From IMG/VR virus record IMGVR_UViG_3300025282_000116, positions 1-35,566 of that record: DNA of 35,566 nucleotides, one strand, 5' to 3'. The translations under genes and the position numbers were made by a program. Numbering within the stretch: position 1 is the first letter of the stretch; each line of letters opens with the position of its first letter. Source of the DNA: a virus. Of this stretch, positions 7,333 to 19,760 are shown piece after piece. The notes beneath the pieces were generated by a model, which saw only the letters and a program-made list of their open reading frames with translations, had not been told where the DNA came from and ran no database searches.

Positions 7333-7379
7333 TTAGAAAGCTACGCCAGGTGCTACACTGGGTTGCCTTATGGATATGA
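7329..7379 (+). CDS. Possible 16-aa linking peptide
   Basis: An ATGA start overlaps the preceding stop, and the TGA (7377-7379) overlaps the next ATG at 7376. The peptide MIRKLRQVLHWVALWI is amphipathic. It may be a real microprotein or only a coupling device that carries ribosomes to the next start. Supported only by the start-stop geometry. Confidence 0.25.
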   Translation: MIRKLRQVLHWVALWI

Positions 7380-7552
7380 TTGGGAAGATACGCCCACAAA
7401 TCGCCCTTGCCATTTTGTGTGCCACGACCTTCAGCATGTTCGCCGCTTGGCTTGGCTATAAGATGGGTGCCATCGAAGTGCTGACGGCCATTATCGGCGG
7501 GATTTTCGGCTTCCTGGGTGGAGTTTCGCTCAAAGTTTTGGAGAATGAATAG
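7376..7552 (+). CDS. Two-span small membrane protein, holin-like
   Basis: A 58-aa product from ATG 7376 (alternative in-frame ATG at 7370). Two hydrophobic segments, about 7-27 (PQIALAILCATTFSMFAAWL) and 32-52 (IEVLTAIIGGIFGFLGGVSL), are separated by a short turn and followed by a charged end (KVLENE). Size and topology fit a class II holin, but no adjacent endolysin is recognised. It overlaps the next gene's GTG by one base. Confidence 0.5.
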   Translation: MIGKIRPQIALAILCATTFSMFAAWLGYKMGAIEVLTAIIGGIFGFLGGVSLKVLENE

Positions 7553-7905: not shown

Positions 7906-8162
7906 TGGATGCTAGTGTCGTACAAGCGGTTATTGCGGCTGTCGGCCCGGTAGGTGTGGGAGTTCTGGCGGCGGTATGGCTGCTGACGCGGAGGCGGGAG
8001 AATGGCACCCAGAACCTTCGTCGGAACCAGGTGCTGGAAAGCCTGACCAAGATCGGGACTGATGTCGGGAATTTGAAGGACACGACCGGCGAGATCCGAG
8101 AGGATATCCGGGAACTGCGCCAGTCCTATACCCAGCACCTACAGGACCATTCCTCCGCGTAG
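7905..8162 (+). CDS. Membrane protein with coiled-coil tail
   Basis: An 85-aa product with ATG 7905 overlapping the thermonuclease TAA (TAATG). One N-terminal hydrophobic segment (VQAVIAAVGPVGVGVLAAVW), then basic LLTRRREN, then a long amphipathic helix (LESLTKIGTDVGNLKDTTGEI and onward). This layout is common in phage holin-like or lysis accessory proteins. Last plus-strand gene of the late operon. Its last 24 bases overlap the convergent VRR-NUC gene, and I see no terminator hairpin between them. Confidence 0.6.
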   Translation: MDASVVQAVIAAVGPVGVGVLAAVWLLTRRRENGTQNLRRNQVLESLTKIGTDVGNLKDTTGEIREDIRELRQSYTQHLQDHSSA

Positions 8163-8474
8163 AGTCTTCTCTATCTCGGGCCAGTCCAGGGGCCTCCATA
8201 TATAGACCTCGATGGATGGTACGTCTGACAGGCGCTGAATCCATTCCTCCTGTTCCTTCCGTAGTTTCCCCTTGTGGGACTTCAACTCGGCAAAGATAAG
8301 CCGGGTACCCCGGACCATCGTAAGGTCGGGATACCCGGCTTCTGACCGGCGGCTATCATAGGTATGGTAGACGGTCCACCCAGCAAGCTGGGCGTACTTC
8401 ATGAGGGTCTGCTGGAAATCCTTCTCCAGTACGTAGGGCCACCGCCGTTTCCGTGGTCTAGCCTTCGTTGGCAT
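8139..8474 (-). CDS. VRR-NUC domain nuclease
   Basis: A 111-aa single-domain protein of the VRR-NUC (PD-(D/E)XK) family. Visible motifs: an N-terminal Glu in LEKDFQQTLMKYAQLAGW, GYPDLTMVRGTRLIFAELKS (Asp then ExK catalytic core) and KLRKEQEEWIQRL. Stand-alone phage VRR-NUC proteins act as Holliday-junction or flap nucleases in replication and recombination, consistent with the RecT/exonuclease/ATPase genes upstream in the same operon. Last gene of the minus-strand operon, convergent with the late genes. Confidence 0.88.
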   Translation of the reverse strand: MPTKARPRKRRWPYVLEKDFQQTLMKYAQLAGWTVYHTYDSRRSEAGYPDLTMVRGTRLIFAELKSHKGKLRKEQEEWIQRLSDVPSIEVYIWRPLDWPEIEKTLRGGMVL

Positions 8475-8484
8475 CCGGCGCCCT

Positions 8485-8739
8485 TTACCATCTCACCATG
8501 AGGTCTTCGGGTTCAACCTGCCGGATATAATGGTACCCGTTCTCCACCAGGATCCCGTCGTCCTGGAATAGCCGGATGATCCTGCAAGGACTATGCCAAC
8601 AGCTCTGTGGATTGCCTAGTAGGGCGCTAAGGCGCGGGTCGGCCGGAGGGTCAGGGTCGGCCGCACAATAGCCCGGTTCGTGGCCGTCCCCTACCATGGG
8701 TTTCAAGCTGACACGGTCGCCTATATGGAACGTCGTCAT
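8485..8739 (-). CDS. Hypothetical protein, SH3-like beta fold possible
   Basis: The start is placed at ATG 8739 because GGAGGT (8744-8749 on the minus strand) precedes it by four bases; an upstream TTG at 8751 lies inside that Shine-Dalgarno. The 84-aa product starts MTTFHIGDRVSLKP, a pattern seen in small SH3-like barrels, and ends with IRLFQDDGILVENGYHYIRQ. Two Cys (PGYCAAD, QSCWHSPC) are present but do not form an obvious metal site. Function unknown. Confidence 0.6.
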   Translation of the reverse strand: MTTFHIGDRVSLKPMVGDGHEPGYCAADPDPPADPRLSALLGNPQSCWHSPCRIIRLFQDDGILVENGYHYIRQVEPEDLMVRW

Positions 8740-8864
8740 AAGTACCTCCAATTGATAAATATGGTGCTGATATAGGGGATAGGCCAGTGGCTGCTATCAT
8801 CAGCATATACAGGTATTAGCGATACCAGCCACCAGTTATGCCATTTTCGACGCCCGCTGTACAT
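8736..8864 (-). CDS. Possible 42-aa protein filling the spacer
   Basis: ATG at 8864 lies one base after the stop of the preceding gene, and the TGA overlaps the ATG of the following one (ATGA). The frame contains the next gene's Shine-Dalgarno. The product (MYSGRRKWHNWWLVSLIPVY at the start) is Trp/Tyr/Ile-rich with a weakly hydrophobic centre. Evidence is the perfect fit between two genes; there is no family match. Confidence 0.35.
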   Translation of the reverse strand: MYSGRRKWHNWWLVSLIPVYADDSSHWPIPYISTIFINWRYL

Positions 8865-8865
8865 A

Positions 8866-9033
8866 TCATATCCCCTGGGCGGCACGAGCCAGTTCTGCCA
8901 TACTCAGATTCAAGTTCTCCATCTGGGTATTATGTTCCTGTAATTCTTGCGTCCATTCTTTGATAGCTGACTCAACTCCCTTGATCGCTTTGATAACGTC
9001 TTCCATCTGACGCCATTGGTTCTGTTCATTCAT
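8866..9033 (-). CDS. Small coiled-coil protein, 55 aa
   Basis: ATG overlaps the ATPase stop (ATGA). The product is almost entirely helical (MNEQNQWRQMEDVIKAIKGV, then VESAIKEWTQELQEHN), with heptad spacing of hydrophobics. Coupling to the ATPase suggests a small partner or loader, but this rests on position only. Confidence 0.55.
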   Translation of the reverse strand: MNEQNQWRQMEDVIKAIKGVESAIKEWTQELQEHNTQMENLNLSMAELARAAQGI

Positions 9034-10244
9034 CTATTCACTCCCCACGTATTATTCCCTTGCTTGGAGAACTGGTTGTTCCGGGACAGTATGACCTGAA
9101 CGCTCTGGGCATTGGCCCCGAGGTCTTCGGCTAACTCCCGCGCCGTCGTCGGCCCGCTCCGGACCAGGCTCGCCGCGATCCGTTCTCTCAAAGGTAATTC
9201 TTCAAAGAACTCAGGAACGTCCTCAAGCATCTCCATCTGGAGTTGGACGGTCCCGTTGTCGAAGTGGAACCGGTAGCTGCTGCTGGTCTGGAGTCGCCCC
9301 TCGTTAGCCTTGCGGTGCATCAGGGCCACGTGGATGATATTCTCACCCTCTTGCTGGGACTTCTTGAGCTCGTAGGTATTCCTGGGGTAGTTGACCCAGT
9401 ACACGCTTCCGAACGGCCCGATGGAGTTCCCTCCCTTGCTTCTGTGGGCGATCGTCAATGACGTGATATGAAGGGAGCGGAGGGCCGTGAAATAATTGAT
9501 CGCTGCCGCGGCTGACTCCGGCTCGCCTCCGCACGCGGGTCCGGCAGAATCTATTATCACCATCTTGATATCGTGTTCCGCGACGATCCTCTGGAGTTCG
9601 TCTACCTCGGACGCTACGGGTTGCCAGCAGAAACGGTAGAGGATCGTACTTGGTGCCTCCAGGCCGAAACCGCTCTGCAAGGCCTGGATCCGGCGGGCCG
9701 TCACCGATTTGCCCGTTTCGTAGTCCAGATACAGGACCCTTCCCTGGATAGGCCGAAGCCGGCCGAAGGTTATCCCCTGGTCTACCAGGAGGCCGCAGAG
9801 CGCGGCCATGTAGGACTTGCCGATACCGCCTTCCCCATAGAGAAGACAGGCCTCGCCGTCGATCAGCATCGGGGCTAGGCGCATCTCCGCTTGGGGAGGG
9901 GGATTGACCTGGCCCAGCGATACTACCGGCTCGCCCTGGCGCCACCGGTCAAGTACTGCCACGCACATCTCCTCTATGATAGCTGACCAGTCCCTTACCA
10001 CCATGTTCCCGCGTTCCGTGCAGAAGCGGGCTACCTCGTTCCGGGACCGAGTCGCCAGGAGGTTGAGGGTCGTGAGGTGGATATGTCCTTCCGGGTAAGC
10101 GGTGATCCGGACCTCCGCCGTCGGCGCTTGCCGGGATGATTCCCGGATACGGTCAACGGTGATCTGGACTTGATCGGATTCCCAGTTGAACCGGTAGGCA
10201 TTGCCGACGACGGTCAAGGTGAACGGGCGTTGGTGAGGCGTCAC
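9030..10244 (-). CDS. RecA-fold replicative ATPase, RepA-like, with C-terminal winged helix
   Basis: A 404-aa protein with three parts. Residues 1-120 are an unassigned N-terminal domain. Residues ~125-330 form a RecA/RepA-type P-loop ATPase: Walker A GEGGIGKS at 137-144, LYLDYE near 171-176, Walker B KMVIIDSAG at ~227-235, and SLTIAHRSKGG as sensor. Residues ~350-404 form a winged-helix domain (ERIAASLVRSGPTTARELAE). Phages use such proteins as replicative helicases or loaders; sites are cytoplasmic at the replication fork. GTG start overlaps the preceding gene (GTGA). Helicase role inferred from family and operon. Confidence 0.8.
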   Translation of the reverse strand: MTPHQRPFTLTVVGNAYRFNWESDQVQITVDRIRESSRQAPTAEVRITAYPEGHIHLTTLNLLATRSRNEVARFCTERGNMVVRDWSAIIEEMCVAVLDRWRQGEPVVSLGQVNPPPQAEMRLAPMLIDGEACLLYGEGGIGKSYMAALCGLLVDQGITFGRLRPIQGRVLYLDYETGKSVTARRIQALQSGFGLEAPSTILYRFCWQPVASEVDELQRIVAEHDIKMVIIDSAGPACGGEPESAAAAINYFTALRSLHITSLTIAHRSKGGNSIGPFGSVYWVNYPRNTYELKKSQQEGENIIHVALMHRKANEGRLQTSSSYRFHFDNGTVQLQMEMLEDVPEFFEELPLRERIAASLVRSGPTTARELAEDLGANAQSVQVILSRNNQFSKQGNNTWGVNR

Positions 10245-10600
10245 GGGGTATCCGTCCAGGTAGGACGCCTAGATGGAACAGGCCGGTCGATAGGAGGGGG
10301 CGGTTCCGGGGGCCTGGGCGGCGCGCTTACTTGCGATGGCCGTTTCTGGTCCCGCAAGACTTCCACTACTTCATCAAGCTTATCAATCATCTGCCATATG
10401 TCCGGGGTACTTGGCGCGGGTGGCTCGTCGAAACGGGCTTCGCGGATAAGGCCTTCAGACCTGCGCCGCCGCCGTCTGTCTTCTACTTTTGCTATCAGCC
10501 CCGGTGTAACAACCACGCCCATCTTCTGGGCGATCCGTTGCCATCCACCAGGCTGCGGGATATCTTCCAGAGGTTCCCATTCTTCGTCGTTCATCATCAT
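10241..10600 (-). CDS. Hypothetical protein, Pro/Arg-rich, replication operon
   Basis: A 119-aa protein with a run of three in-frame ATGs at the start (MMMNDEEWEPLED) preceded by GAGGGAAGG, so any of the three may be used. Contains a basic helix (LIAKVEDRRRRRRSEGLI), a short acidic helix (WQMIDKLDEVVEVLRDQK) and a Pro-rich disordered tail (PPRPPEPPPPIDRPVPSRRP). The stop overlaps the ATPase GTG by four bases, suggesting joint synthesis with it. A DNA-binding or adaptor role is plausible but not shown. Confidence 0.6.
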   Translation of the reverse strand: MMMNDEEWEPLEDIPQPGGWQRIAQKMGVVVTPGLIAKVEDRRRRRRSEGLIREARFDEPPAPSTPDIWQMIDKLDEVVEVLRDQKRPSQVSAPPRPPEPPPPIDRPVPSRRPTWTDTP

Positions 10601-10731
10601 CCTTCCCTCTAAGATTAGGAGGGGGCGGGAGCCATCCTAGTGGAGTAGTGGCCCCCATTATCGTCCTTGTGTGCCCATAACGGCGCAGAGTGATGGCCCG
10701 CATCCGCGTGGGAGGACGAACCCCATATAGT
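10601..10731 (-). other. Intergenic spacer without a supported gene
   Basis: 131 bp between the RecT-like gene and the Pro-rich gene. I see the next gene's Shine-Dalgarno but no convincing hairpin or promoter. An 82-residue frame crossing it overlaps the coding region for most of its length and looks like a shadow. Confidence 0.5.
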
Positions 10732-11595
10732 CTAGTCAGTAGATTCGGCGGCTACTTCTTCAAAGGTTTCCTCGATAGCCTCCGGGACGGACTCCATCGG
10801 TGGTTCGGCGTCCTCGGTGGGCGCGGCTGATCCGTCCCATACGCAATACCCGCCGTCTTCCTTCAGATGGACCCACCCGGTCACCCTGGTCTTGCTGCTT
10901 CGTTTCGACTCAAAGTAGACCTTGTGCTCGTCGCAGAAGGGCTTGGATGGGTTGCTCGGCTCTCCGGCTGGACGATTATTCGAGGTATGGACCACCGGAG
11001 GCGCGATCTGTTTCATACCCTCGGCAGCATCTTCTTCCGGCAGTTCAACCTTCATCTCGGCGGCGTCATAGAGGCCAGCGAACGTATTTGGGAAGGCTTC
11101 CCGGAGCGCCTGGACCAGGGCCACCTTCCGGATCATAGTACCTGGCATGGACTTCCATCCCGATCTCCCGGTGTCGTATTCCCTGAAGGACACCGGGATC
11201 TCCGTGGGTATCTTCCGGTCCATCCGGTGGATCTCAGCCCAGCCTCCGACCAGTTTCTCCTCATCCAATATCAGGCTGCCCTTCCGGTATTCCACCGCGC
11301 CGGAGCTATCCTGGACTATGACCCCGGCTACCATACCGGCGAACTGGGGATGGGCCTCGGCCCGTTTCGTGAAAGAGTCTTTCCCCACGACCATCGTGGC
11401 TACTCCGTCGCCGAACTTCAGCAAATAGGCGTCCCTTACGAAGGGGTTCAAGCCCTGATACCTACAGAGCTCAAGGAATAGTGCGGCCTCCTGGTCGGTG
11501 GCCTTAGGGCAGAACAACCGCTTGACATCGGTCAGCGATAGCGATACCTCGGCATTGGATAAGGTGTCCTTATATGTCACGATCTCAGTCGTCAT
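10732..11595 (-). CDS. RecT/Bet-family single-strand annealing protein
   Basis: A 287-aa protein. Start at ATG 11595, preceded by GGAGGAAAG and overlapping the exonuclease stop (ATGA). Family blocks: LTDVKRLFCPKATDQEAALF, CRYQGLNPFVRDAYLLKF and VGKDSFTKRAEAHPQFAG. These match the Bet/RecT pattern, in which LNPF and the DxFxKxA motif are diagnostic; SMPGTMIRKVALVQALREAF is the conserved C-terminal part of the core. These proteins anneal complementary single strands during recombination. The last ~90 residues are acidic and disordered with FCDEHKVYFES, a possible partner-binding tail. Works with the adjacent exonuclease. Confidence 0.88.
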   Translation of the reverse strand: MTTEIVTYKDTLSNAEVSLSLTDVKRLFCPKATDQEAALFLELCRYQGLNPFVRDAYLLKFGDGVATMVVGKDSFTKRAEAHPQFAGMVAGVIVQDSSGAVEYRKGSLILDEEKLVGGWAEIHRMDRKIPTEIPVSFREYDTGRSGWKSMPGTMIRKVALVQALREAFPNTFAGLYDAAEMKVELPEEDAAEGMKQIAPPVVHTSNNRPAGEPSNPSKPFCDEHKVYFESKRSSKTRVTGWVHLKEDGGYCVWDGSAAPTEDAEPPMESVPEAIEETFEEVAAESTD

Positions 11596-12479
11596 CTTTC
11601 CTCCGTTATGATTTGATCGGCCCAGGTCAGGTCGTCCCATACTCCCTTGGCAGCATGAAGGGACTTGAAAGCCAGTTTGGCCGCGTTCAGGTTTCCTACT
11701 CTGGCAGCCTCGAATATCTGCCGGTTGCTTCGGAGTACCCAGGCCGCGGTAGGCTCGATGCCCGTGATCTCCTTATAAGCCATCGCGTAACCGGCTAGCT
11801 GGACCTGGGCATTGTCGTATAGGCCGCCGGTCTTCCAGTCGAACAGGGTGATATTACCTCCCCGTTCGGCTACGCAGTCTATCTTCCCGGCATATAACAT
11901 CTCCGGGTGATAGACCGTGACCTCGAAGTCCAGGACGTTATACTCATGGCTTGCCAGCCATTCCCTTATGTTATAGGTGGACTCCTCCAGATCGGGGTCG
12001 ATGAAGTATTCTACGCCCATCTTGTCGGCTTTCAGAAGGGCTTCCAGTTCCTCATGGACGCGGTTCCCAAAGTCCCTTGCGATGGATGATTTGCTAGGGA
12101 CTTTCTCCGCTTCTTTGCGGAGTTTCAACAAGTCCCGTTTCTGGGTCCGGTGGTTGACTATAGATCCACCTTCGTTCAAGGTCTTCCTCTTCTCATCACC
12201 GTACTCGCCGAAGATGGTATCAAAGCCGTTCTTTCGGCCTGCGGCGTACATATTGGCCTTCATGTACATCCCGCTGATCGTGCTGCAACTGGTCATTCCG
12301 GTACAGCTCTCCGGCTTGGGTTGCCGGTCTTTCGTGGACCTTCCCGTGCATTGGCCGCAGCGCGTACAGGGGAACCCGTCCACCTTATAGGTATGGCCGT
12401 GCTCCCCCCACTTTCGCAGGGTAACTTCACGGTCGAATCGGGGCAGGGTGTTATCCGGTAGCCTGAGTATCTCAGCCAT
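11592..12479 (-). CDS. PD-(D/E)XK exonuclease, RecB/Cas4-like, with Cys-rich N-terminus
   Basis: A 295-aa protein. Start taken at ATG 12479, eight bases after AGGAGG; ATG 12485 and GTG 12488 lie too close to it. The nuclease core is at ~135-240: SIARDFGNRVHEELEALL (His142), YAGKIDCVAERGG (Asp201), ITLFDWKTGG (DxK at 214-216) and NAQVQLAGYAMAY (Gln motif). It sits directly upstream of RecT, forming a typical exonuclease/annealase pair that resects double-strand ends. Odd feature: five Cys at 38, 41, 44, 59 and 65 (CTRCGQC, then C and C) suggest a zinc or Fe-S site at the N-terminus, whereas Cas4/AddB-type clusters usually also use C-terminal Cys. Confidence 0.85.
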   Translation of the reverse strand: MAEILRLPDNTLPRFDREVTLRKWGEHGHTYKVDGFPCTRCGQCTGRSTKDRQPKPESCTGMTSCSTISGMYMKANMYAAGRKNGFDTIFGEYGDEKRKTLNEGGSIVNHRTQKRDLLKLRKEAEKVPSKSSIARDFGNRVHEELEALLKADKMGVEYFIDPDLEESTYNIREWLASHEYNVLDFEVTVYHPEMLYAGKIDCVAERGGNITLFDWKTGGLYDNAQVQLAGYAMAYKEITGIEPTAAWVLRSNRQIFEAARVGNLNAAKLAFKSLHAAKGVWDDLTWADQIITEER

Positions 12480-12669
12480 TGCCATCACCTCCTGGCGACC
12501 TATTGTATAGTTTGTTCAACCATGTAGATATCAGGTAATGCCATGGTTCCCGTGGGTTACCGCCCGCCCGGACATACTCGATGCCCAGGCGAACGTCCAT
12601 ATCGCTCAAGGCATGGCCCCGTTGCCGGAGCACTATGCCTATCAGAAGTTCGTCCCGGTGGTTAACCAC
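12472..12669 (-). CDS. Hypothetical small protein
   Basis: A 65-aa product, probable GTG start (12669) overlapping the end of the DUF932 gene by eight bases; the stop overlaps the exonuclease start and the frame contains its Shine-Dalgarno. The sequence (LIGIVLRQRGHALSDMDVRL, then EYVRAGG) is helical and soluble. Support is the double overlap. Function unknown. Confidence 0.5.
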   Translation of the reverse strand: MVNHRDELLIGIVLRQRGHALSDMDVRLGIEYVRAGGNPREPWHYLISTWLNKLYNRSPGGDGNG

Positions 12670-13711
12670 TAAAGGCTGAAACCCCTTCCCTTGAGAAGTC
12701 TTGCAAGAGGTTCCAGGCTTTGCCCTTAGTGGTCCGGCCAGGGCCGAACCAGGCCTTCTCTAGGCGGTGCTCGTCGGGTTCTCCTAACTGCCCATGCCCT
12801 ACCCGATCGTAGTAGTCCACGAACTCGGTAGCGGCATTGTACGCGGCCCAAGCGGTCTGCTTGACGCCGGGGATCTCCTGGCCCCTGCCCTCAACGAACA
12901 GGTGCTGGAGCATGTCGATAGCCTCGCGGGTATACTTATGGAGGGTCGTCGGGTCTACGGCCTCGGCTTCCATACGCTTGGGCTTCACCAGGGCCGTGGC
13001 GAAGGACTCCATATCGATGGTGGTCATATTGGCATTGACCAATCCGTCAACCCCTTCCATCATCCGTTCGAAGTATGCCTGGGATAGGCCCAAGCCTTCA
13101 CGGGCCTGGACCGCTTTACTGTAGACATCTCCGCTATGACGGATCGTCACGATGTCCGATGCCGAACCACGCCGGAAGGCGAAGTGTAAGGTATTGGAGC
13201 AGACTACCCGGATCATAGTCGGCCGCATGGTTAAGCCCAGGCTGCCGTCGTGGCTGGTGCTGAGGAGGATATAGGGTTCCAGTTCATCCCCCGGTACTAC
13301 CTCATAGGACTTGCCCATCTTCGCCAGGATCCAGACGATCTTGCCATCACGCAGGGCGCCAGCCGTATGGTATTGTCCCTGGCCCGGTCCCATCACCGCG
13401 TCAAACAACCCGAAGGCGTCGACGTTCTGGATCGGGCTGTAGTGCTCGGTACGGAGGCCCAGGACCTTGCCGTTGTCTTGCCGGACTATGAATCGGTAAG
13501 GGTCAACCTCGTTGTAACGGGTCTTGAACCAATCATGGGTCCCTCGGTAGACCGGCTCAAGGGCGACCGTCCAATCCAGGTGCGCGGCCTCCAGAGCTTC
13601 CTCCGCGGTGGCCGGACCCTCCAGGCGTTGCCCTAGCCCATGCCAGGGCGTGTCCCCGATGTAGAACATCTCTGCTTCGCCATTGGCGGCGATCGATAGT
13701 TCGTGAGGCAT
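12662..13711 (-). CDS. DUF932 / TIGR03299-type phage-plasmid protein
   Basis: A 349-aa protein. Start at ATG 13711 after AAGGGGG; a longer frame to 13804 would run through a palindromic leader. Family features: GDTPWHGLGQRLEGPATAEE at the N-terminus, then FIVRQDNGKVLGLRTEHYSP, WILAKMGKSYEVVPGDELEP, STSHDGSLGLTMRPTMIRVV and CSNTLHFAF. These are the hallmark blocks of the DUF932 family found in phages and plasmids next to recombination genes. The biochemical role is not established; association with exonuclease/RecT pairs suggests DNA metabolism. Confidence 0.85.
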   Translation of the reverse strand: MPHELSIAANGEAEMFYIGDTPWHGLGQRLEGPATAEEALEAAHLDWTVALEPVYRGTHDWFKTRYNEVDPYRFIVRQDNGKVLGLRTEHYSPIQNVDAFGLFDAVMGPGQGQYHTAGALRDGKIVWILAKMGKSYEVVPGDELEPYILLSTSHDGSLGLTMRPTMIRVVCSNTLHFAFRRGSASDIVTIRHSGDVYSKAVQAREGLGLSQAYFERMMEGVDGLVNANMTTIDMESFATALVKPKRMEAEAVDPTTLHKYTREAIDMLQHLFVEGRGQEIPGVKQTAWAAYNAATEFVDYYDRVGHGQLGEPDEHRLEKAWFGPGRTTKGKAWNLLQDFSREGVSAFSG

Positions 13712-13803
13712 AACTAGCCCCCTTCTATATATTTGGGCAACTGCCCGGGCAGTGTAACCCATCTCAACCCACCACGTCACCGTGATGGGTTGAAGGGACC
13801 GCA
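13712..13803 (-). promoter_or_regulatory. Palindrome-rich leader of the DUF932 gene
   Basis: Two inverted repeats lie between the genes on the minus strand: AACCCATC with GATGGGTT, and the palindrome ACTGCCCGGGCAGT (13740-13753). It starts with CGGTGA like the nine RNA elements upstream but lacks their UAA and CAAG core. May be a translational leader, an operator or a degenerate copy. Confidence 0.4.
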
Positions 13804-14019
13804 CTATCCGTCGGGGTCGGCGTCACACGTGACCCACTGGGTACAGGTCCGCAGCAGGTTGTCATAGTCGCCGCTCATACATTCCTTGAGGAACAGGTCC
13901 CTCTCGGCTTTGTCGACGCCTTTATAATGAAGGGCCTCGGTGACCCTTCCCATGATGGCGAAGGCGTTCCCGTCCTCCCCGACTAGCCTGACATAGATGT
14001 GTGGATATTTGATCGTCAT
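13804..14019 (-). CDS. Conserved small phage protein, 71 aa
   Basis: ATG overlaps the upstream stop. The product (MTIKYPHIYVRLVGEDGNAF, AIMGRVTEALHYKGV, CMSGDYDNLLRTCTQWV) matches a family I recognise from many actinobacterial phages and prophages, where it is annotated as hypothetical. Soluble alpha/beta mini-domain; function unknown. Confidence 0.75.
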   Translation of the reverse strand: MTIKYPHIYVRLVGEDGNAFAIMGRVTEALHYKGVDKAERDLFLKECMSGDYDNLLRTCTQWVTCDADPDG

Positions 14020-14267
14020 ATTCCATCCTTTGGTTTATCTGTGATCTCGAGGAACCCCACCCGGTCTAATTCCCGGATGAAGTCCTCGCAGGTGCCGAAC
14101 TTTATCCCTTCCCCCTGCCATTGCTCTATCCTCCAGGCCACGCGTTCCATCAGCTCGGCCTTGTCCTGAGGCTGGGAGAAGTTGGTTAGTTTAAGTTGAC
14201 CGACCAGGTCGTCCCAGGAGTCGGCCGTGAATACCTCGCCCATATAGGTCTGGACCGTTATGCTCAT
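14016..14267 (-). CDS. Hypothetical small protein, 83 aa
   Basis: Begins right after the upstream stop (14268) and overlaps the next gene by four bases. Sequence MSITVQTYMGEVFTADSWDD then LVGQLKLTNFSQPQDKAEL; a mixed alpha/beta soluble protein with no known motif. Part of the coupled trio 13804-14567. Confidence 0.6.
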   Translation of the reverse strand: MSITVQTYMGEVFTADSWDDLVGQLKLTNFSQPQDKAELMERVAWRIEQWQGEGIKFGTCEDFIRELDRVGFLEITDKPKDGI

Positions 14268-14567
14268 TCACTCCTCCGATGCTTTAGCGGCTTTTAGCTC
14301 AGCCGCGGTCTTCACCCCATAGCGCCGTTTCTCAACGGATACGTCCAGCAGGTGCTTGGCCTTCTTGATCCGGGTCATCGCCCCCTCCAGGGCTTGACCA
14401 GCCATGAACTCATCCCAGTCTTCCTTGTGGTCCGTCCCACAGGAGGGACAGGTCGTGACGGCGGCATTAAGATCGGCCTTCACCGTCGCCAGAAGGGTTT
14501 CTGCCAGGTTCAGCCGCTTGTCCCGTTTCCTATCGGTCGGGTCGGCTTCGTCCCAATGATTCCCCAT
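14268..14567 (-). CDS. Small helical protein with CPSC motif
   Basis: A 99-aa product. ATG 14567 lies five bases after GGAGG, the Shine-Dalgarno that closes RNA element E1. A CPSCGTDH motif (residues ~40-47) could bind zinc but has no clear second Cys pair. Helical segments flank it (RLNLAETLLATVKADLNAAV and GAMTRIKKAKHLLDVSVEKR). Function unknown. Confidence 0.6.
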   Translation of the reverse strand: MGNHWDEADPTDRKRDKRLNLAETLLATVKADLNAAVTTCPSCGTDHKEDWDEFMAGQALEGAMTRIKKAKHLLDVSVEKRRYGVKTAAELKAAKASEE

Positions 14568-14572
14568 CGGGT

Positions 14573-14648
14573 CCTCCACCCCGCTTAGTTTGCTGGGCTT
14601 GCCACCAGCTTGCGGGTTACGCCCACCCCGGAGGGTGGGTGGCTCACC
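14573..14648 (-). ncRNA. Structured intergenic RNA element E1, twister-like
   Basis: Minus-strand order: GGUGA, GCC, hairpin P1 (CCCACCC-UCCG-GGGUGGG, 14622-14639), G, UAA, CCCGC, hairpin P4 (GCUGG, loop UGGCAAGC, CCAGC, 14592-14609), A-rich linker, GCGGG, then Shine-Dalgarno GGAGG. Loop GGC pairs with GCC (14641-14643). CCCGC pairs with GCGGG. The predicted cleavage site by twister analogy is between 14619 (U) and 14618 (A). Precedes gene 14268-14567. Confidence 0.8.
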
Positions 14649-14657
14649 TTACCTCAA

Positions 14658-14942
14658 CTATTCCTGACGGCTCATCCCGAGCTCAAAGCTGAACGGGTGG
14701 ATCACCCCGCTAGTATCTTCGCCGTGGGTGTAACGATCGAAATTCCCGACGAAAGCGACGGCGGCTTCGGGCATCTGGTAGTCCGTCCAGTGACCATCGG
14801 TATCCATGATCGAGGCGAACTCGGTGTAGACCGAGCAGACCGGAAACCCGGCCCGATGAAGGGCCAGGGCGATAGGGCATGAATACTTATCCAGCGGCTT
14901 GCCGTGGTCGATATCTTCCTGGGTGACGTTCACGATGAACAT
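14658..14942 (-). CDS. Conserved phage protein, 94 aa
   Basis: ATG 14942 follows GGAGG by five bases; an upstream in-frame TTG is not needed. MFIVNVTQEDIDHGKPLDKY then SCPIALALHRAGFPV and a terminal FVGNFDRYTHGEDT...PFSFEL form a pattern I recognise from small conserved proteins of actinobacterial phages (QEDI...CPIALAL...F). No function is assigned there. It lies between RNA elements E2 (upstream) and E1 (downstream). Confidence 0.7.
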   Translation of the reverse strand: MFIVNVTQEDIDHGKPLDKYSCPIALALHRAGFPVCSVYTEFASIMDTDGHWTDYQMPEAAVAFVGNFDRYTHGEDTSGVIHPFSFELGMSRQE

Positions 14943-14947
14943 TAGTT

Positions 14948-15021
14948 CCTCCAACCCGTGTTATTTTGACCGGGCTTGCCACCGGTCTGCGGGTTACGGC
15001 CCCCGAAGGGGCTGGCTCACC
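14948..15021 (-). ncRNA. Structured intergenic RNA element E2, twister-like
   Basis: P1 is GCCCC-UUCG-GGGGC; P4 is GACCGG, loop UGGCAAGC, CCGGUC. Loop GGC pairs with GCC after GGUGA. AACCCG pairs with CGGGUU immediately before GGAGG. Invariant UAA; predicted cut 14996/14995. The UGA of GGUGA is the stop codon of the upstream gene 15017-15328. Confidence 0.82.
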
Positions 15022-15328
15022 TCTCCGTTATTACTTTGAACTTGCCGGTCCCGGCGCAGGGATCGCAACCATAATCGCCGCTGTCAGGGCCGGTAGCGCC
15101 GTTGAAGTAGCTGGGCGGCGACCAACCGTGTTCCCCGCGGCCTTCGCAGCAGTAGCAGATCAGATGCCAGTCGGAGTATTTGGGGCCGAAGACGGTTGCC
15201 TCTTCGCGTAGTTGCCGATGACCCTCCAGGGAAGGGCCTTGACCGTCAGGGCCATATAAGGCGTCTTCGATGGTTATACATTCGCCAGCCGTAACCTTAC
15301 GGCCATCACTTAATGTTGTTTGCATCAT
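15017..15328 (-). CDS. Small protein with two CxxCxGxG zinc motifs
   Basis: A 103-aa product. Two DnaJ-type half sites, CYCCEGRG (residues ~60-67) and CDPCAGTG (~89-96), would form one zinc site as in DnaJ Cys-rich modules or the small phage zinc proteins that carry them. Start at ATG 15328 or 15325. Only seven bases separate it from the preceding gene, so it lacks its own RNA element and is probably translated by coupling. Role unknown; possibly nucleic-acid or protein binding. Confidence 0.65.
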   Translation of the reverse strand: MMQTTLSDGRKVTAGECITIEDALYGPDGQGPSLEGHRQLREEATVFGPKYSDWHLICYCCEGRGEHGWSPPSYFNGATGPDSGDYGCDPCAGTGKFKVITER

Positions 15329-15335
15329 TTAATAA

Positions 15336-15644
15336 TTACCCCAAATCAGCAGAGCGGTTGCCCACGGTCCGAAGGGATCCGCGGCCGTTCGGCCTTTGCG
15401 CTCCGTCCCGCCCTACGACGATCGACCCGCTGGGGCCACACTCCACGTAGGTTATCTCTACCCTATAGGTATAGGCATTGGGCACGAAGCCCTGGCAGGA
15501 ATAGACCCGGACCCGTTTCCCGGGATTCTCCTCCCTCAGTTCAACGAAGACCTTGGCATCGCCACGGCTCAGGCACCGCTTCCTGGCTCGGCCTTCGACG
15601 CGCCGCGCCTCTTCCATTATGGATTCCACGGTCGGCTCGATCAT
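15336..15644 (-). CDS. Hypothetical protein, 102 aa
   Basis: ATG 15644 after GGAGGAACC that closes element E3. Helical N-terminus (MIEPTVESIMEEARRVEGRA) then a beta-rich middle (KRVRVYSCQGFVPNAYTYRV) and a disordered Arg/Gly end. No family recognised. Confidence 0.55.
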   Translation of the reverse strand: MIEPTVESIMEEARRVEGRARKRCLSRGDAKVFVELREENPGKRVRVYSCQGFVPNAYTYRVEITYVECGPSGSIVVGRDGAQRPNGRGSLRTVGNRSADLG

Positions 15645-15648
15645 GGTT

Positions 15649-15721
15649 CCTCCAACCCGACAGATTAGCCGGACTTGTGACCGGCTCGCGGGTTAACCCC
15701 GCCGAAGCGGGGCCACTCCCC
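15649..15721 (-). ncRNA. Structured intergenic RNA element E3, twister-like
   Basis: P1 is CCCCGC-UUCG-GCGGGG; P4 is GCCGG, loop UCACAAGU, CCGGC. Loop CAC pairs with GUG after GGGGA, a full compensatory change from E1/E2. AACCCG pairs with CGGGUU, which abuts GGAGG. UAA present; predicted cut 15695/15694. Precedes gene 15336-15644. Confidence 0.82.
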
Positions 15722-15727
15722 TGGTGT

Positions 15728-16558
15728 TTATTCCGGGACCGGATAGGATTCCGGGTTACGCCCACCAGCCCGCCAATAAAGAGCTCGGGGGGTCGTCTTG
15801 CCGGTCCGCCACATATTCCAGGCCTTGAATATCAGCGCCGTATAGTCGCGGATCGGCAGCTTGCGAATCGCTCCAGCGTCTTCAAGCAAGCGCCTTCGCA
15901 GGTGCAGGATCGGATGGGCTTGATGCAGGTCTATGCCGGTGGAGAGTTGGGACAGGAACGCCGCGGCGTCTTCTGCGTCAACTCCGCTGAGGATATAATG
16001 AACGATGGCCCACCGGCCCGCTCCTCCTTGGAAGAACCGGCGCATGGAATGTCCGGTCTTCAAACTACCCCGGAGTCCTGGAGCTTCATTCAATAGAGCC
16101 AGGGCCTCGGGGATAGTGAGGCCCTTTCCACCCCAGGATATCTTCTGCACCATGCCGGACCTGAGATATTCGGAATAGAAGTTGATGGTACTTGCCAGGC
16201 CTCCGCTATCAGCTTCTCCATTTATATAGAGGGCGTCTGCCAGGGTGCGCGTCCTGTTGAGGTCCATGACATAGAGGCCAGCGAGCGGGACGTTACGCAC
16301 CACGATGAAGGAAAGGGCCAACCCGGTGGCGATCAAAGCCCTCAAGCGGTGCTGCCCATCGATCAGGTTCCCATCGGTATCGAACCGGATGGGTCCGTTC
16401 GCTTCAGGTATCCAATCGTCCTCTTTCATAGCCTTGGCCCACCGATCGACCCCTGCTTGGCTGAGGCGTCTATTCTTGGGCATTTGATTCAGATATTCCT
16501 GGGCCGTTATTGGGCCAATGGTTTCGACGGTCACGGCAATATCACGCTGTGATGCCAT
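15728..16558 (-). CDS. DGQHR/ParB-like domain protein
   Basis: A 276-aa protein. The N-terminal half carries a ParB/Srx-type nucleotide-binding fold with NRRLSQAGVDRWAKAMKEDD and the signature LIDGQHRLRALIATG (residues ~65-80), followed by VVRNVPLAGLYVMDLNRTRT. This arrangement (DGQHR, then a D.NRTRT motif) occurs in phage proteins of unknown role related to DndB/ParB folds. The C-terminal half is helical. Cytoplasmic. May act in DNA modification or as an NTP-dependent regulator; function inferred only by fold. Confidence 0.7.
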   Translation of the reverse strand: MASQRDIAVTVETIGPITAQEYLNQMPKNRRLSQAGVDRWAKAMKEDDWIPEANGPIRFDTDGNLIDGQHRLRALIATGLALSFIVVRNVPLAGLYVMDLNRTRTLADALYINGEADSGGLASTINFYSEYLRSGMVQKISWGGKGLTIPEALALLNEAPGLRGSLKTGHSMRRFFQGGAGRWAIVHYILSGVDAEDAAAFLSQLSTGIDLHQAHPILHLRRRLLEDAGAIRKLPIRDYTALIFKAWNMWRTGKTTPRALYWRAGGRNPESYPVPE

Positions 16559-16566
16559 GTCGACTA

Positions 16567-16653
16567 CTCCTCGGTCTACACCTAACCCTTAGATTTAGCT
16601 GGGCTTGTGACCAGCCTGCGGGTTAAACGGCCCCGAAGAGCCGTCCACTCCCC
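16567..16653 (-). ncRNA. Structured intergenic RNA element E4, twister-like
   Basis: P1 is ACGGCUC-UUCG-GGGCCGU; P4 is GCUGG, loop UCACAAGC, CCAGC. Loop CAC pairs with GUG. UAACCC pairs with GGGUUA, a shifted register relative to other copies. Longest copy: about 20 extra bases separate the GGGUUA strand from the Shine-Dalgarno (GAGGAG). Predicted cut 16625/16624. Its 5' end shares a base with the stop of gene 16653-16820's neighbour strand (TAG at 16655-16653). Confidence 0.8.
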
Positions 16654-16820
16654 TAGCTAGCTTTCGCTAGCCGTTTGATCTCCTCCTTGGAGATGGTCAT
16701 AATGACCTCGACCTGGTTGTCGCCTAGCCTCCCGTTCTTGATGAACACCTCGTAGTTCTTGGGACCGCAATCCCGGAACCGAAGGCTGCCGTGGTCTATG
16801 GCTTGAATAATGTGTTCCAT
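16653..16820 (-). CDS. Small hypothetical protein, 55 aa
   Basis: ATG 16820 chosen because the frame upstream is occupied by RNA element E5 and GCGAGGAATATC precedes the start. MEHIIQAIDHGSLRFRDCGP then VEVIMTISKEEIKRLAKAS; a compact alpha/beta mini-protein with no motif. Placed between E5 and E4. Confidence 0.55.
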   Translation of the reverse strand: MEHIIQAIDHGSLRFRDCGPKNYEVFIKNGRLGDNQVEVIMTISKEEIKRLAKAS

Positions 16821-16826
16821 GATATT

Positions 16827-16902
16827 CCTCGCCCCCAATAATTTTGCCCCGGCCTTGGAACCGGCGACTGGGGGTTTACAGCCCCGAAGGGCTGTCCTCA
16901 CC
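16827..16902 (-). ncRNA. Structured intergenic RNA element E5, twister-like
   Basis: P1 is CAGCCC-UUCG-GGGCUG; P4 is GCCGG, loop UUCCAAGG, CCGG. Loop UCC pairs with GGA after GGUGA, a third solution of the same pseudoknot. CCCCCA pairs with UGGGGG directly before GCGAGG. Predicted cut 16878/16877. It occupies the entire gap between the stop of 16905-18080 and the start of 16653-16820. Confidence 0.82.
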
Positions 16903-16904
16903 TC

Positions 16905-18080
16905 TTAGTAGATATAGCGTTCATGATGGTGGACGGTTAAACCGTTACCGAGCCCGGTAAAATCAAAGGCGTCACATTCACAAGCCTGTTGCTCACAAGA
17001 CCAACTAGGATTATTCCCTTGAATACGGCTTGGGCATGTGCATTGTTTGGTTATCTGGAGGTCCGTTCCTTCAAGGAGTTTGTACCCGTCCTTCCGTTCA
17101 ACGGCTCCTTCCATATAGATCTGCTGGTACTTGTCGGCATACCTTTCACTGGGTATCCAAACCACTTTGACTACCGGCAATTCTTTGGTAAGGTCCGCAT
17201 CAGGATGGATCTTTCTCTTAGCATGTATCAGCCACTTGGGGTTCTTACGGCTCTTGCGGTTCTTACCCTTCTTAACGGTCGCCGTAGGCAGTTCCATCTT
17301 AGTTTGGGTTTCTATGGGGGCGGGCTCTTCACCCGCCTCCTCTGCGTAGAATTTAACCTTCTTCTTCATGCAACCTCTACCGATACGGCAGACGCTATGG
17401 GCAGGCATCAGGAAGGTCCGGGTCTTCTCTCCGAAGGTTTCCCGTAATATCTCACCGGTACTCGCGAAGGCCAGATATCCTAGCTTGTAGTTCCGCGTCA
17501 TGCAGATTGGATTGCTGTTCCGGGCCAGGAATATCCCATCAGGTTTCCGCGCGTCCACGACGGCTATGGCATATCCGCCTTCCAGTTCCGGTAAACGGGT
17601 CACCAGGTCGTTGACGGTCAAAGGTTTCTCCGTACTACTATCCCTCAAGAGGGCCATGATGGCAGCCGAGTCGACCTCAGCTACTTTGGTGTAAAGCCTT
17701 CCCAATTCCCGGTGGTTGCGGATCATACCGTTATGGACCCCAATGATGGGGTCATCAATGATGGGATGGTTGTTGGAATTTTCCTTCGGGCTGCCGGTCG
17801 TGGCTGCCCTGGTATGTCCAATCACCGCCACGGTGTCCGGCCCAATCTTGTCCATCAAGGACAGGAACTGCGCGTCTTCGGTAAGACGGGAAGCCTTCTT
17901 AGGGGCCTTATAATAGAAGATGTTTCCAATCCCTTTATTGACCACGAATGCTCCGGCGGCATCCACGCCCCGGACCTGGCAGTTCACTAGCAAACGGGTG
18001 AACTCCTCCCGGATAGTTGAGTAGTCTTCCTCAGTCCGGTCTTTTCCCGGCCCAAGGCAGAATCCAGCGATTCCACACAT
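16905..18080 (-). CDS. Class II (Ntn) glutamine amidotransferase with Cys-rich C-terminus
   Basis: A 391-aa protein. ATG 18080 gives Met-Cys-Gly-Ile-Ala-Gly-Phe, so Cys2 becomes the N-terminal nucleophile after Met removal; GGAGG lies five bases upstream. The GATase II domain (~1-230) shows GHTRAATTGSPKENSNNHPI, GVHNGMIRNHRELG and AEVDSAAIMAL, the GlmS-type glutaminase signatures. It should hydrolyse glutamine and release ammonia. No synthase domain follows; instead there is a Lys/Arg-rich linker (~270-300) and a C-terminal cluster (KQCTCPSRIQ, SCEQQACECDAF), possibly a zinc site. The amidoligase two genes upstream is the obvious ammonia or amide user. Confidence 0.9.
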   Translation of the reverse strand: MCGIAGFCLGPGKDRTEEDYSTIREEFTRLLVNCQVRGVDAAGAFVVNKGIGNIFYYKAPKKASRLTEDAQFLSLMDKIGPDTVAVIGHTRAATTGSPKENSNNHPIIDDPIIGVHNGMIRNHRELGRLYTKVAEVDSAAIMALLRDSSTEKPLTVNDLVTRLPELEGGYAIAVVDARKPDGIFLARNSNPICMTRNYKLGYLAFASTGEILRETFGEKTRTFLMPAHSVCRIGRGCMKKKVKFYAEEAGEEPAPIETQTKMELPTATVKKGKNRKSRKNPKWLIHAKRKIHPDADLTKELPVVKVVWIPSERYADKYQQIYMEGAVERKDGYKLLEGTDLQITKQCTCPSRIQGNNPSWSCEQQACECDAFDFTGLGNGLTVHHHERYIY

Positions 18081-18085
18081 GGGAA

Positions 18086-18165
18086 CCTCCAAACGCCTTT
18101 GATTGACACGGCCTTGTCACCGTGCTGGGCGTTTACGGCCCCGCCGAAACGGGGCTGACTCACGC
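18086..18165 (-). ncRNA. Structured intergenic RNA element E6, twister-like
   Basis: The most informative copy. P1 is GCCCCGU-UUCG-GCGGGGC; P4 is CACGG, loop UGACAAGG, CCGUG. Loop GAC pairs with GUC. AAACGCC pairs with GGCGUUU (7 bp) next to GGAGG, while ACGC can also pair with the upstream GCGU. Both alternatives changed in step compared with the CCC/GGG copies. Predicted cut 18135/18134. Precedes the amidotransferase. Confidence 0.85.
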
Positions 18166-18393
18166 TTATTCCAGGATCTCTCTGTTTGGGTTTGCCGTCC
18201 GAGTTATGTAATGGTGGTGGCAGCTTGATTCGATTCTTCCGCTGTTATAAGTGATCAGTACCTCAGCCTTAGCCGAACAAGGAATCGCGTCCTCAACGGT
18301 TGGGGTTTCATCGCTACCAAGAAAAGCCTCGCATTGGGTATCTTGTCCAGATAACCATCGAACTGTTAAACCGTCGAACATATTGGGTTTCAT
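18166..18393 (-). CDS. Small zinc-ribbon-like protein, 75 aa
   Basis: ATG 18393 is preceded by the GGAG ending element E7. Contains Cys/His pairs spaced as in small zinc knuckles: IPCSAKAEVLITYNSGRIES then SCHHHYI. The pattern C-x-x-x-A-E/D-V-x-x-T-x(7-11)-C-x-x-H-Y is shared with gene 19482-19676, so the two are likely paralogues flanking the amidoligase. Possible roles: metal-binding regulator, or small protein substrate of the amidoligase; neither is shown. Confidence 0.6.
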   Translation of the reverse strand: MKPNMFDGLTVRWLSGQDTQCEAFLGSDETPTVEDAIPCSAKAEVLITYNSGRIESSCHHHYITRTANPNREILE

Positions 18394-18399
18394 GGTTTG

Positions 18400-18479
18400 C
18401 TCCAACCCCTCTTTTATTTGGCCGGACTTGTGACCGGCCTGTGGGGTTACACCCGCCCCGAAGGACGGGCCACTCACCC
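18400..18479 (-). ncRNA. Structured intergenic RNA element E7, twister-like
   Basis: P1 is CCCGUCC-UUCG-GGGCGGG with one U-G pair; P4 is GGCCGG, loop UCACAAGU, CCGGCC. Loop CAC pairs with GUG. AACCCC pairs with GGGGUU abutting GGAG, and ACCC can pair with the upstream GGGU. Predicted cut 18449/18448. It starts immediately after the amidoligase TAA. Confidence 0.83.
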
Positions 18480-19397
18480 TTAGTTCCGCGTTGTGGTCCG
18501 GCGCCGTCGTTGCCGGTTCTCTTCTTCGATCTCAACGCCTTCCGGGTTTCCTCTTGATGGGCCACCTATTCCCAAACGGACGGCCAAGTTCTGCATGGCT
18601 TCGTGGGTTATCTCATCACGGTCTTTCAGCATCTCCGCTTTGAGTTCCTGTTTGAGCAAGTACCAGTCCTTGAGGACTCCGTCCATGTCCTGGTAGGGTT
18701 TCAACAGTTTGGCTTTGGTCTGCTTGGAGCGTGCCCGATTCATGATCATCTGGGTGAAGACTATCCAGTTCCAGATCTTGGTTGGATTGAGTGAGCCCTG
18801 GTGCTGTCGGAACTCGATGGTTCCATGCCTCAGGTAAGCCGTGAAGTTGACTCCGAAATACCGGCCGCCTCCATTGGCTTCACCGGCGAACGCTCTGGGT
18901 TGCATGGGAGTTCTTGGCCCTGCCCCTATCGCTAATTCCCAGTGGCGGTAGTGGTCCATCGGCCTTGCATACATCCCTCCCCGTCGGCTTGGGCTCAGTA
19001 GAAGATCGATGATGGGCTGATGGAGTTTGTAGATCTCACCGACATTCGCCATCTGTTTGGCGGTCATGCCGTCCGCGTCGTGGTGGACGTGGAGGCCGGT
19101 GCTGATGTTTACGAAGCAGCCTTGTTCCTTTAACACCCTGCAGACCGTTCGGATCTGTTCCCGTGCCTCAAGCCCCCTCATTGGAGGGCTTACCAGTTCG
19201 AACCCGTTGGGGACTGAGGCGTCCGTTACCATCTTCCAGTATTCCCGGGTGTGGTGGTTGTATCCCTCAGCGACACATGGGACTCCGGCCTCACTTATAA
19301 GAGAGGCTAGTTCATTCATCCGTCCCTGTCCTGGTCGGCGGCCTCTGGTTACGTTGAACTCGATTTCCACTCCGAATCTGTGATCTGAGAATTTCAT
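18480..19397 (-). CDS. Amidoligase family protein (Amidoligase_2-like)
   Basis: A 305-aa protein with ATG 19397. Family blocks in order: HRFGVEIEFNVTRG (first Glu), NGFELVSPPMRG (second Glu), STGLHVHHDADGMT (His-x-His-His) and RHGTIEFRQHQGSLNPTKIW (Glu-x-Arg). These are the glutamine-synthetase-like active-site motifs of the amidoligases described in comparative genomics as ATP-dependent amide or peptide-bond-forming enzymes. In phages and prophages such genes neighbour GATase II genes, as here. Likely role: joins an amino group, ammonia from the amidotransferase, or an amino acid to a carboxylate on a protein, peptide or wall precursor. Substrate unknown. The C-terminal 30 residues are basic and disordered. 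Confidence 0.88.
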   Translation of the reverse strand: MKFSDHRFGVEIEFNVTRGRRPGQGRMNELASLISEAGVPCVAEGYNHHTREYWKMVTDASVPNGFELVSPPMRGLEAREQIRTVCRVLKEQGCFVNISTGLHVHHDADGMTAKQMANVGEIYKLHQPIIDLLLSPSRRGGMYARPMDHYRHWELAIGAGPRTPMQPRAFAGEANGGGRYFGVNFTAYLRHGTIEFRQHQGSLNPTKIWNWIVFTQMIMNRARSKQTKAKLLKPYQDMDGVLKDWYLLKQELKAEMLKDRDEITHEAMQNLAVRLGIGGPSRGNPEGVEIEEENRQRRRRTTTRN

Positions 19398-19403
19398 GGT
19401 TTA

Positions 19404-19480
19404 CTCCAAACCCCTTTATTTATTTACTGGCCTTGGCACCAGTTATGGGGTTTACACCCGCCGGAGCGGGTGGCCTCACC
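19404..19480 (-). ncRNA. Structured intergenic RNA element E8, twister-like
   Basis: P1 is CACCCGC-UCCG-GCGGGUG; P4 is ACUGG, loop UGCCAAGG, CCAGU. Loop GCC pairs with GGC after GGUGA. AAACCCC pairs with GGGGUUU (7 bp) abutting GGAG. The linker after P4 is almost pure A/U. Predicted cut 19454/19453. Precedes the amidoligase. Confidence 0.83.
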
Positions 19481-19481
19481 G

Positions 19482-19676
19482 TTATTCGTTGTTGGCTTTG
19501 GCGGCTCGCCGTCCGGCGGCGGCTGGGTCTTTGGAGTCTATGGTGTAATGTTTGTTGCAGAGGATGGGACCGTTAGTTAGAACAACGTCGGCGTTGTTGG
19601 TGCAGTAACCGGTTGAAGTTTTCGCGCTGCAAAGGTAGGGGATCCGTCCGTGATTGATTGGCGTTGCGTTTTTCAT
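19482..19676 (-). CDS. Small zinc-ribbon-like protein, 64 aa
   Basis: First gene of the leftward operon. MKNATPINHGRIPYLCSAKT then GYCTNNADVVLTNGPILCNK and HY. Cys16, Cys25, Cys41 and the following KHY could make one zinc site. The second half resembles gene 18166-18393. The C-terminus is a basic Ala/Lys helix (AAAGRRAAKANNE). As the leading gene it could be a regulator, but no HTH is visible. ATG 19676 follows GAGGTAAGACAAG of element E9. Confidence 0.6.
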   Translation of the reverse strand: MKNATPINHGRIPYLCSAKTSTGYCTNNADVVLTNGPILCNKHYTIDSKDPAAAGRRAAKANNE

Positions 19677-19685
19677 CTTGTCTTA

Positions 19686-19760
19686 CCTCACCGCTTTAAT
19701 TTTGCTGGGCTTGGCACCAGCTTTGCGGTTTAAGGGGATGTTGCCATCCCCTGCCTCACC
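19686..19760 (-). ncRNA. Structured leader RNA element E9, twister-like
   Basis: First copy of the array, in the 5' leader of the operon, with no gene before it. P1 is GGGGAUG-GCAA-CAUCCCC: the usual UUCG cap is exchanged for a GNRA tetraloop. P4 is GCUGG, loop UGCCAAGC, CCAGC. Loop GCC pairs with GGC. ACCGC pairs with GCGGU just before GAGG. Predicted cut 19732/19731. The changed stem and cap with all core elements kept is strong evidence for RNA structure. Confidence 0.83.

Follow-up and report, generated by a model that had tools for sequence, protein, structure and literature searches.

Type-P5 twister ribozymes in the spacers of a phage operon carry a conserved extension that may re-pair the new 5' end

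Introduction

What might nine structured RNAs be doing in the spacers of a single phage operon? The question is raised by a virus record of IMG/VR, IMGVR_UViG_3300025282_000116, whose 35,566 bases we analysed as a whole (hereafter the window). Nine copies of one RNA motif, E1 to E9, lie on its minus strand at 14573-19760. An earlier note on this DNA had proposed a functional, pseudoknotted and covarying RNA motif that runs through one phage operon; all nine copies were found on the minus strand where it had placed them. Here we identify the nine as type-P5 twister self-cleaving ribozymes (Rfam RF02684), on the evidence of sequence and conserved pairing. We also describe a strand past the ribozyme, the switch strand, whose helix covaries with the ribozyme and excludes part of its fold. 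In the reading that we favour as probable, the ribozymes cut the phage polycistron between genes and the switch strand then re-pairs the new 5' end ahead of the Shine-Dalgarno sequence (SD). Twister and hammerhead ribozymes are widespread near genes of phages and enriched at Mu-like ones in particular, for a reason that is stated to be unknown (PMC10085705; PMC5408937).

Results

The nine copies match the type-P5 twister family

We screened the window with all 4,227 Rfam families and used a relaxed-threshold search with RF02684 for copies below its gathering score of 37.6 bits. The model matched nine of nine copies at E values of 2.6e-10 to 0.007, six of them above gathering, and had no match in 14 control genomes. 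Since this independently built model finds all nine copies and none in the controls, the motif is not a product of chance. The three copies below gathering, E1, E2 and E6 (28-30 bits, E<0.01), share every other feature with the remaining ones.

Each part of the motif has a counterpart in the twister fold. The GGU of the conserved GGUGA is the 5' strand of helix P2, and the next bases with the GNN triplet make up L1 and one side of pseudoknot T1. The hairpin capped by UUCG, UCCG or GCAA is P1, the UNNCAAGN hairpin is P4 with its loop L4, and the bases after CAA pair with a dinucleotide of L2 as pseudoknot T2. Cleavage is expected at the invariant UAA (U^AA); twister ribozymes cut 5' of a conserved A (PMC5408937). 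The strand order P2a-L1-P1 hairpin-UAA-P2b-P4 holds in all nine, with a closed P1 hairpin and the termini at the P5 position; the optional stem P5 was not seen in the nine window copies. The core letters of L1 and L4 (GAG, UAA and CAAG) are invariant in 9/9 window copies, as they are in 62 collected copies, where the search patterns and the scan required them. The shared architecture described in the earlier note holds for P1, P4 and the loop/triplet pairing, all of which belong to twister-P5; the note did not recognise the class, gave no function and missed P2 and T2.

All nine ribozymes lie on the minus strand, with scissile bonds predicted from sequence. In order of transcription, E9 (19705-19760; U19732^A19731; T1 GGC/GCC; 48.9 bits) stands in the leader of the first gene and E8 (19427-19480; U19454^A19453; T1 GGC/GCC; 42.3 bits) precedes an amidoligase gene. 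They are followed by E7 (18422-18479; U18449^A18448; T1 GUG/CAC; T2 AC/GU; 39.2 bits), E6 (18108-18164; U18135^A18134; T1 GUC/GAC; P2 CGU with ACG; 30.4 bits, E 0.0019), E5 (16849-16902; U16878^A16877; T1 GGA/UCC; 41.9 bits), E4 (16599-16653; U16625^A16624; T1 GUG/CAC; 54.9 bits) and E3 (15669-15721; U15695^A15694; T1 GUG/CAC; 57.3 bits, above gathering). The last two are E2 (14970-15021; U14996^A14995; T1 GCC/GGC; 30.0 bits, E 0.0025) and E1 (14593-14648; U14619^A14618; T1 GCC/GGC; 28.3 bits, E 0.0069), which precedes the gene at 14567-14268.

Pseudoknots and helices covary

The loop/triplet pairs that the earlier note had listed are confirmed base by base and correspond to T1, which is paired in 9/9 window copies. 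T1 is not paired in the RF02684 model, so that copies chosen by Rfam are unselected for it. It is nonetheless paired in 48 of 50 distinct Rfam-selected copies from the window and related records, where permutation expects 12 and reaches a maximum of 22. Together with the Rfam matches, this supports the functional, covarying RNA that had been proposed.

We further gathered 81 distinct copies from viral contigs with a pattern scanner that demanded P1, P4 and T1 pairing and the core letters (GAG, UAA, CAAG); counts for these three pairings among scanner copies are inflated because the scanner selected on them. With that selection, 96.8% of 992 cells pair across 62 composites, at a covariation score of 0.715; the score drops to 0.111 or less when the partners are offset by 1 to 3 columns. 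T2 was not used in selection: 92.7% of its cells are paired in the 62 copies, and its types among 69 copies include GC/GC (30), CC/GG (25), AC/GU (5) and GC/GU (4). P2 covaries as well, GGU being matched by ACC and CGU by ACG. Two composites that the scanner had mis-cut (L210 and L211) are within the 69-copy counts of T2 and of the switch permutation and were left out of the 62-copy covariation set.

Copies whose T1 is GCC/GGC (E1, E2 and others) mostly read CG-UAA-CCC at the cut site, and other T1 types mostly UAA-ACC. The former would leave a U-C mismatch in P2, or a P2 displaced by one position; T1 and L1/P2 change in a linked way.

Other identities were rejected or are disfavoured. A new class of pseudoknotted RNA is ruled out by the match to RF02684, which is twister-P5. 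Twister-sister, which cleaves on the opposite strand and is without pseudoknots (PMC5408937), is ruled out by the presence and covariation of T1 and T2. No riboswitch family reached its gathering threshold in the window, where the spacers are occupied by ribozyme and switch strand; a riboswitch is unlikely, though an effect of some ligand is conceivable on sequence grounds. None of the nine copies coincides with a minus-strand site in a scan for intrinsic terminators, and P1 is followed by UAA and the C-rich strand, not by a U run; no tRNA was found.

Ribozymes sit between stop codon and SD and are inherited with their genes

Eight copies fill gaps between same-strand genes and the ninth, E9, precedes the first gene, in its 5' leader; because of E9, separating two genes is not their sole role. 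Every junction of the window operon with room for a spacer carries a ribozyme, and the ribozyme-free junctions (15336/15328, 14268/14267 and 14016/14019) have no spacer. Among the collected copies, the upstream stop codon lies a median of 1 nucleotide (nt) from the ribozyme and P4 a median of 27 nt from the start codon, with the SD in between; an SD and a start codon occur within 75 nt after 70 of 81 copies. At E2 the UGA stop of the upstream open reading frame (15328-15017) falls within the conserved GGUGA itself (15017-15021), so that termination and ribozyme folding must compete there. A number of copies likewise close an open frame with this UGA, a tally that possibly counts chance frames.

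The earlier note had called for a search in other phages. Of 47 further records reached by DNA patterns, 39 had an RF02684 match at E<=0.001, one of them a bacterial metagenome-assembled genome (MAG). In one related contig (L130), relatives of the window's amidoligase (54% protein identity) and amidotransferase (70%) each have a ribozyme before them. These ribozymes keep the P2/T1 types of the window, GGU/GGC for the amidoligase and CGU/GUC for the amidotransferase, and their P1 and P4 are altered by compensation. The 55-amino-acid gene behind E5 also has a relative, in contig L158, whose ribozyme has a different, yet matched, T1 pair.

We considered whether the copies could be a spreading selfish element, or degenerate relics, lodged in the spacers with no role for the phage. 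Genomes do hold many copies, and copy number varies among related phages. Yet the ribozymes are inherited with the same genes across large protein distances with pairing kept, which disfavours a recently spread element. Their sequences diverge under maintained pairing, all core nucleotides are retained, the copies occupy one exact position between stop and SD, and neither flanking repeats nor mobility genes were observed. We regard this explanation as very improbable.

A tie to the amidoligase as such is ruled out: among 80 loci with amidoligase relatives, twister-P5 (by Rfam) occurred only in the four contigs whose amidoligase is 100% identical. In the spacers of 16 related contigs, no ribozyme class other than twister-P5 reached its gathering score. 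A contig of another phage, L207 (IMGVR_UViG_3300025131_000278), carries a row of seven same-strand twister-P5 copies at 6431-10001, all without the switch helix; in the parts inspected, every start codon is preceded by a conserved run close to AACCGUAACAAGGGGG. The single weak copy in an Acidimicrobiales MAG (L205) is insufficient to name a host.

A second helix re-uses the strand after the cut

The RF02684 model stops at P4, so the switch strand lies outside the described family model. In the switch helix, the strand that follows the cut, AA(A)CCNC, pairs with a strand 9-12 nt past P4 that usually touches the SD. Its 5' strand is shared with P2, where it pairs with GGU, and with T2, to which it contributes one side, so the switch helix excludes both. 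The C-rich/G-rich helices listed in the earlier note are confirmed base by base; its account of all helices as one fold does not stand, as this helix is exclusive of P2 and T2 and thus represents a second state.

On the minus strand, the switch strand of E9, GCGGU (19690-19694), pairs with ACCGC at 19729-19725 and abuts GAGG. That of E8, GGGGUUU (19408-19414), pairs with AAACCCC at 19453-19447, and that of E7, GGGGUU (18404-18409), with AACCCC at 18448-18443; both abut GGAG. Three others abut GGAGG: GGCGUUU of E6 (18091-18097), paired with AAACGCC at 18134-18128; CGGGUU of E3 (15654-15659), paired with AACCCG at 15694-15689; and CGGGUU of E2 (14953-14958), paired with AACCCG at 14995-14990 from the first post-cut nucleotide. 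UGGGGG of E5 (16832-16837) pairs with CCCCCA at 16874-16869 and ends 1 nt before GAGG, and GCGGG of E1 (14580-14584) pairs with CCCGC at 14616-14612 and ends 2 nt before GGAGG. At E4, GGGUU (16584-16588) pairs with AACCC at 16624-16620 but does not directly adjoin the SD, and one further A of this strand can pair with the U preceding the cut.

Matched strands pair better than exchanged ones. At least five Watson-Crick switch pairs form in 49 of 80 copies, compared with 12.5% of shuffles. In the window, 53 such pairs form, against 42.2 +/- 2.6 after the strands are swapped, and 24 of 362,880 permutations are as good. Among 69 non-redundant copies, permuted partners equalled the matched pairing in 0 of 50,000 trials. 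Permutation within each phage, an approximation to tree-aware covariation values, gave 255 matched pairs against 226.6 +/- 5.3 (0 of 200,000 as good) and, without the window, 202 against 184.3 (21 of 200,000 as good).

Covariation extends over three strands, with P2 strand, middle strand and switch strand reading GGU/ACC/GGU, CGU/ACG/CGU or UGU/ACA/UGU. We consider the rare CGU and UGU forms, as read from sequence, the most telling evidence for the switch helix. Because they recur in both outer strands, the switch strand can be described as a second copy of the P2 5' strand, kept in register by covariation. On these comparisons, the C-rich/G-rich helix is real, as a state exclusive of P2 and T2.

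Helix position relates to both the cut and the SD. Across 47 well-placed copies, the helix begins exactly at the first post-cut nucleotide in 21, reaches upstream of the cut by at most one nucleotide (the U before it), and adjoins the SD without a gap in 26. In the predicted cleavage products of the nine window copies, the mean pair probability of the switch helix is 0.88-0.94. As an isolated duplex it is worth -7.7 kcal/mol versus -2.1 for P2 alone; the ribozyme is also held by T1, T2 and tertiary contacts beyond the P2 duplex energy.

A cut followed by strand exchange is the probable mechanism

In the mechanism that we consider probable, the type-P5 twister ribozyme of each spacer would cut the polycistronic transcript at U^AA. 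Since P1 precedes the cut and P4 follows it in the type-P5 order, the upstream message would end in the GC-rich P1 hairpin just past its stop codon, and the downstream message would start with 5'-OH-AA(A)CCNC. We infer that events follow transcription, the ribozyme folding and cutting first and the A-rich linker delaying the switch strand. This strand, between linker and SD, would then displace GGUGA from the C-rich strand, which would break P2 and T2, free the upstream product and make the cut effectively one-way. The new 5' end would be buried in a hairpin that finishes directly before a free SD, and single-gene messages with a hairpin at both ends would result. Cleavage in the host, a switch that follows it, and end protection or SD presentation by the hairpins are all inferred steps of this scheme.

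Several observations weigh against it. E1, E2 and E6 fall under the Rfam gathering cut-off, and pairing of P1, P4 and T1 was a selection rule in the 62-copy pairing count. At least 32 of 81 copies are without a switch helix, among them all seven of L207. When cut and uncut RNAs of the 47 copies were folded with ViennaRNA, without pseudoknots, the helix had a probability of 0.60 in uncleaved RNA versus 0.62 in the product, and predicted SD accessibility was similar, 0.63 cut versus 0.61 uncut. Sequestration of the SD before cleavage is unsupported by this folding as a control point. The copies without a switch helix rule it out as a universal trait of twister-P5 and indicate that it is dispensable for a ribozyme between genes.

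The folding result bears on the main rival, in which the ribozymes cleave but the switch helix forms earlier and brakes them, and so regulates how much of the message is cut and how much stays uncut. Where folding is slow, or a terminating ribosome covers the stop codon, the C-rich strand would be caught in its downstream pairing and the transcript would remain polycistronic. Because the helix is predicted in uncleaved RNA too, folding without pseudoknots cannot separate release from braking. The switch helix does exclude P2 and T2 and is stronger than P2 alone, and with the stop codon at or inside the 5' strand of the ribozyme, a terminating ribosome would cover P2 and T1. Yet the helix halts at the scissile bond in nearly all copies, as a product end would, although P1 also blocks its extension. 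Moreover, the switch strand is transcribed last, past the A-rich spacer, an order that favours cleavage first, and there is no sign of a ligand or signal. We judge such a brake possible but unlikely.

Alternatively, the downstream helix could be a translation-initiation structure alone, with the SD open and P4 in place, unlinked to cleavage. The gapless junction with the SD in those 26 copies is what such a structure would give, and for RiboJ, an engineered insulator, exposure of the ribosome-binding site (RBS) has been suggested as an effect of the appended hairpin (PMC6206723). However, the strand that the helix draws on is exactly that of P2 and T2, and its partner repeats the P2 sequence even in the rare CGU and UGU forms; a free-standing structure needs neither, and SD accessibility is predicted to be unchanged. 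To us this explanation appears improbable, more so than the brake.

Genes of the operon

All genes of the operon are on the minus strand. Behind E9, the first gene (19482-19676) encodes 64 amino acids (aa) and has no family match; behind E8 is the amidoligase gene (18480-19397; 305 aa; PF12224, E 4.1e-29), and behind E7 a 75-aa gene with no family match (18166-18393). E6 is followed by a class II glutamine amidotransferase-like gene (16905-18080; 391 aa from this start; PF13522, E 3.4e-13), E5 by a 55-aa gene with no family match (16653-16820), and E4 by a 276-aa gene (15728-16558) that matches phrog_5931, of unknown function, and weakly a ParB-like family. The 102-aa gene behind E3 (15336-15644) has no family match; the next, of 103 aa (15017-15328), starts 7 nt past the previous stop with no ribozyme between. 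E2 precedes a 94-aa gene (14658-14942; phrog_19191) and E1 a 99-aa gene (14268-14567), the last one preceded by a ribozyme; the gene after it starts at 14267 with no spacer.

A promoter-like TGTACA-17-TATAAT lies at 19995-19967, about 200 nt upstream of E9, from a scan whose number of sites is no higher than in shuffles. Later same-strand genes (9030-14267) are close-packed and often overlap (at 14267, 14019 and 13804). Twister-P5 had no match in 9030-14267, the ribozymes being limited to the promoter-proximal part.

The amidotransferase-like gene adjoins the amidoligase gene in the window and in L130, and the two are possibly a pair for peptide or cell-surface modification. On the plus strand the window has Mu gpF-like and Mu gpT-like head genes (26650-28548 and 30486-31412), and a terminase that shares about 51% identity with its counterpart in Methanothermobacter phage psiM100.

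Discussion

The nine elements belong to a ribozyme family already known; their array is unusually dense and ordered, and they carry a conserved extension. They agree with twister-P5 (RF02684) in core sequence, in P1, P2, P4, T1 and T2, in strand order and in the U^AA site, and they differ from it in the A-rich linker and SD-adjacent switch strand past P4 and in number, nine copies with one per spacer of one operon.

Processing of phage polycistrons between genes is itself familiar. In T7, RNase III cuts the early mRNA between genes into messages with 3' hairpins, the work there of a host protein enzyme and here, in our proposal, of RNA in cis. The glmS ribozyme, likewise self-cleaving upstream of a bacterial coding region and leaving a 5'-OH, is metabolite-dependent and its 5'-OH product is degraded, whereas the 5' end proposed here looks designed for burial. 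That ribozyme is among those named in PMC5408937.

Clustered prophage hammerheads were proposed in 2011 as possible processors of long transcripts, and a halovirus hammerhead was placed 13 nt before a start codon, with a transcript 5' end mapped within 3 nt of the cleavage site (Perreault et al. 2011, PMC3088659). These belong to another ribozyme class, and the available part of that report describes no post-cleavage alternative helix. In RiboJ, ribozyme cleavage within the leader results in a hairpin immediately upstream of the RBS; mRNA stabilisation and RBS exposure are the effects proposed for it (PMC6206723). RiboJ is engineered and hammerhead-derived, with an independent added hairpin, unlike the hairpin proposed here, which uses the ribozyme's own strand after cutting. 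For natural self-cleaving ribozymes, our search of the open-access literature turned up no conserved switch that acts after cleavage. As far as we checked, then, the cleavage chemistry and operon processing as an idea both have precedents, and the conserved switch helix is new.

We give about an even chance to the fuller claim that one strand serves first in the catalytic core and then in a protective 5' hairpin, a natural combination of ribozyme and strand-exchange switch that would yield double-capped single-gene messages without protein. A phage with Mu-like head genes, a ribozyme in each operon spacer and a covarying second state offers a concrete and cheap test case for the role of ribozymes in phages. 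If the proposed mechanism is true, phage-associated twister ribozymes would gain a biological function, and engineered ribozyme insulators and ribozyme-separated operons would have a natural precedent.

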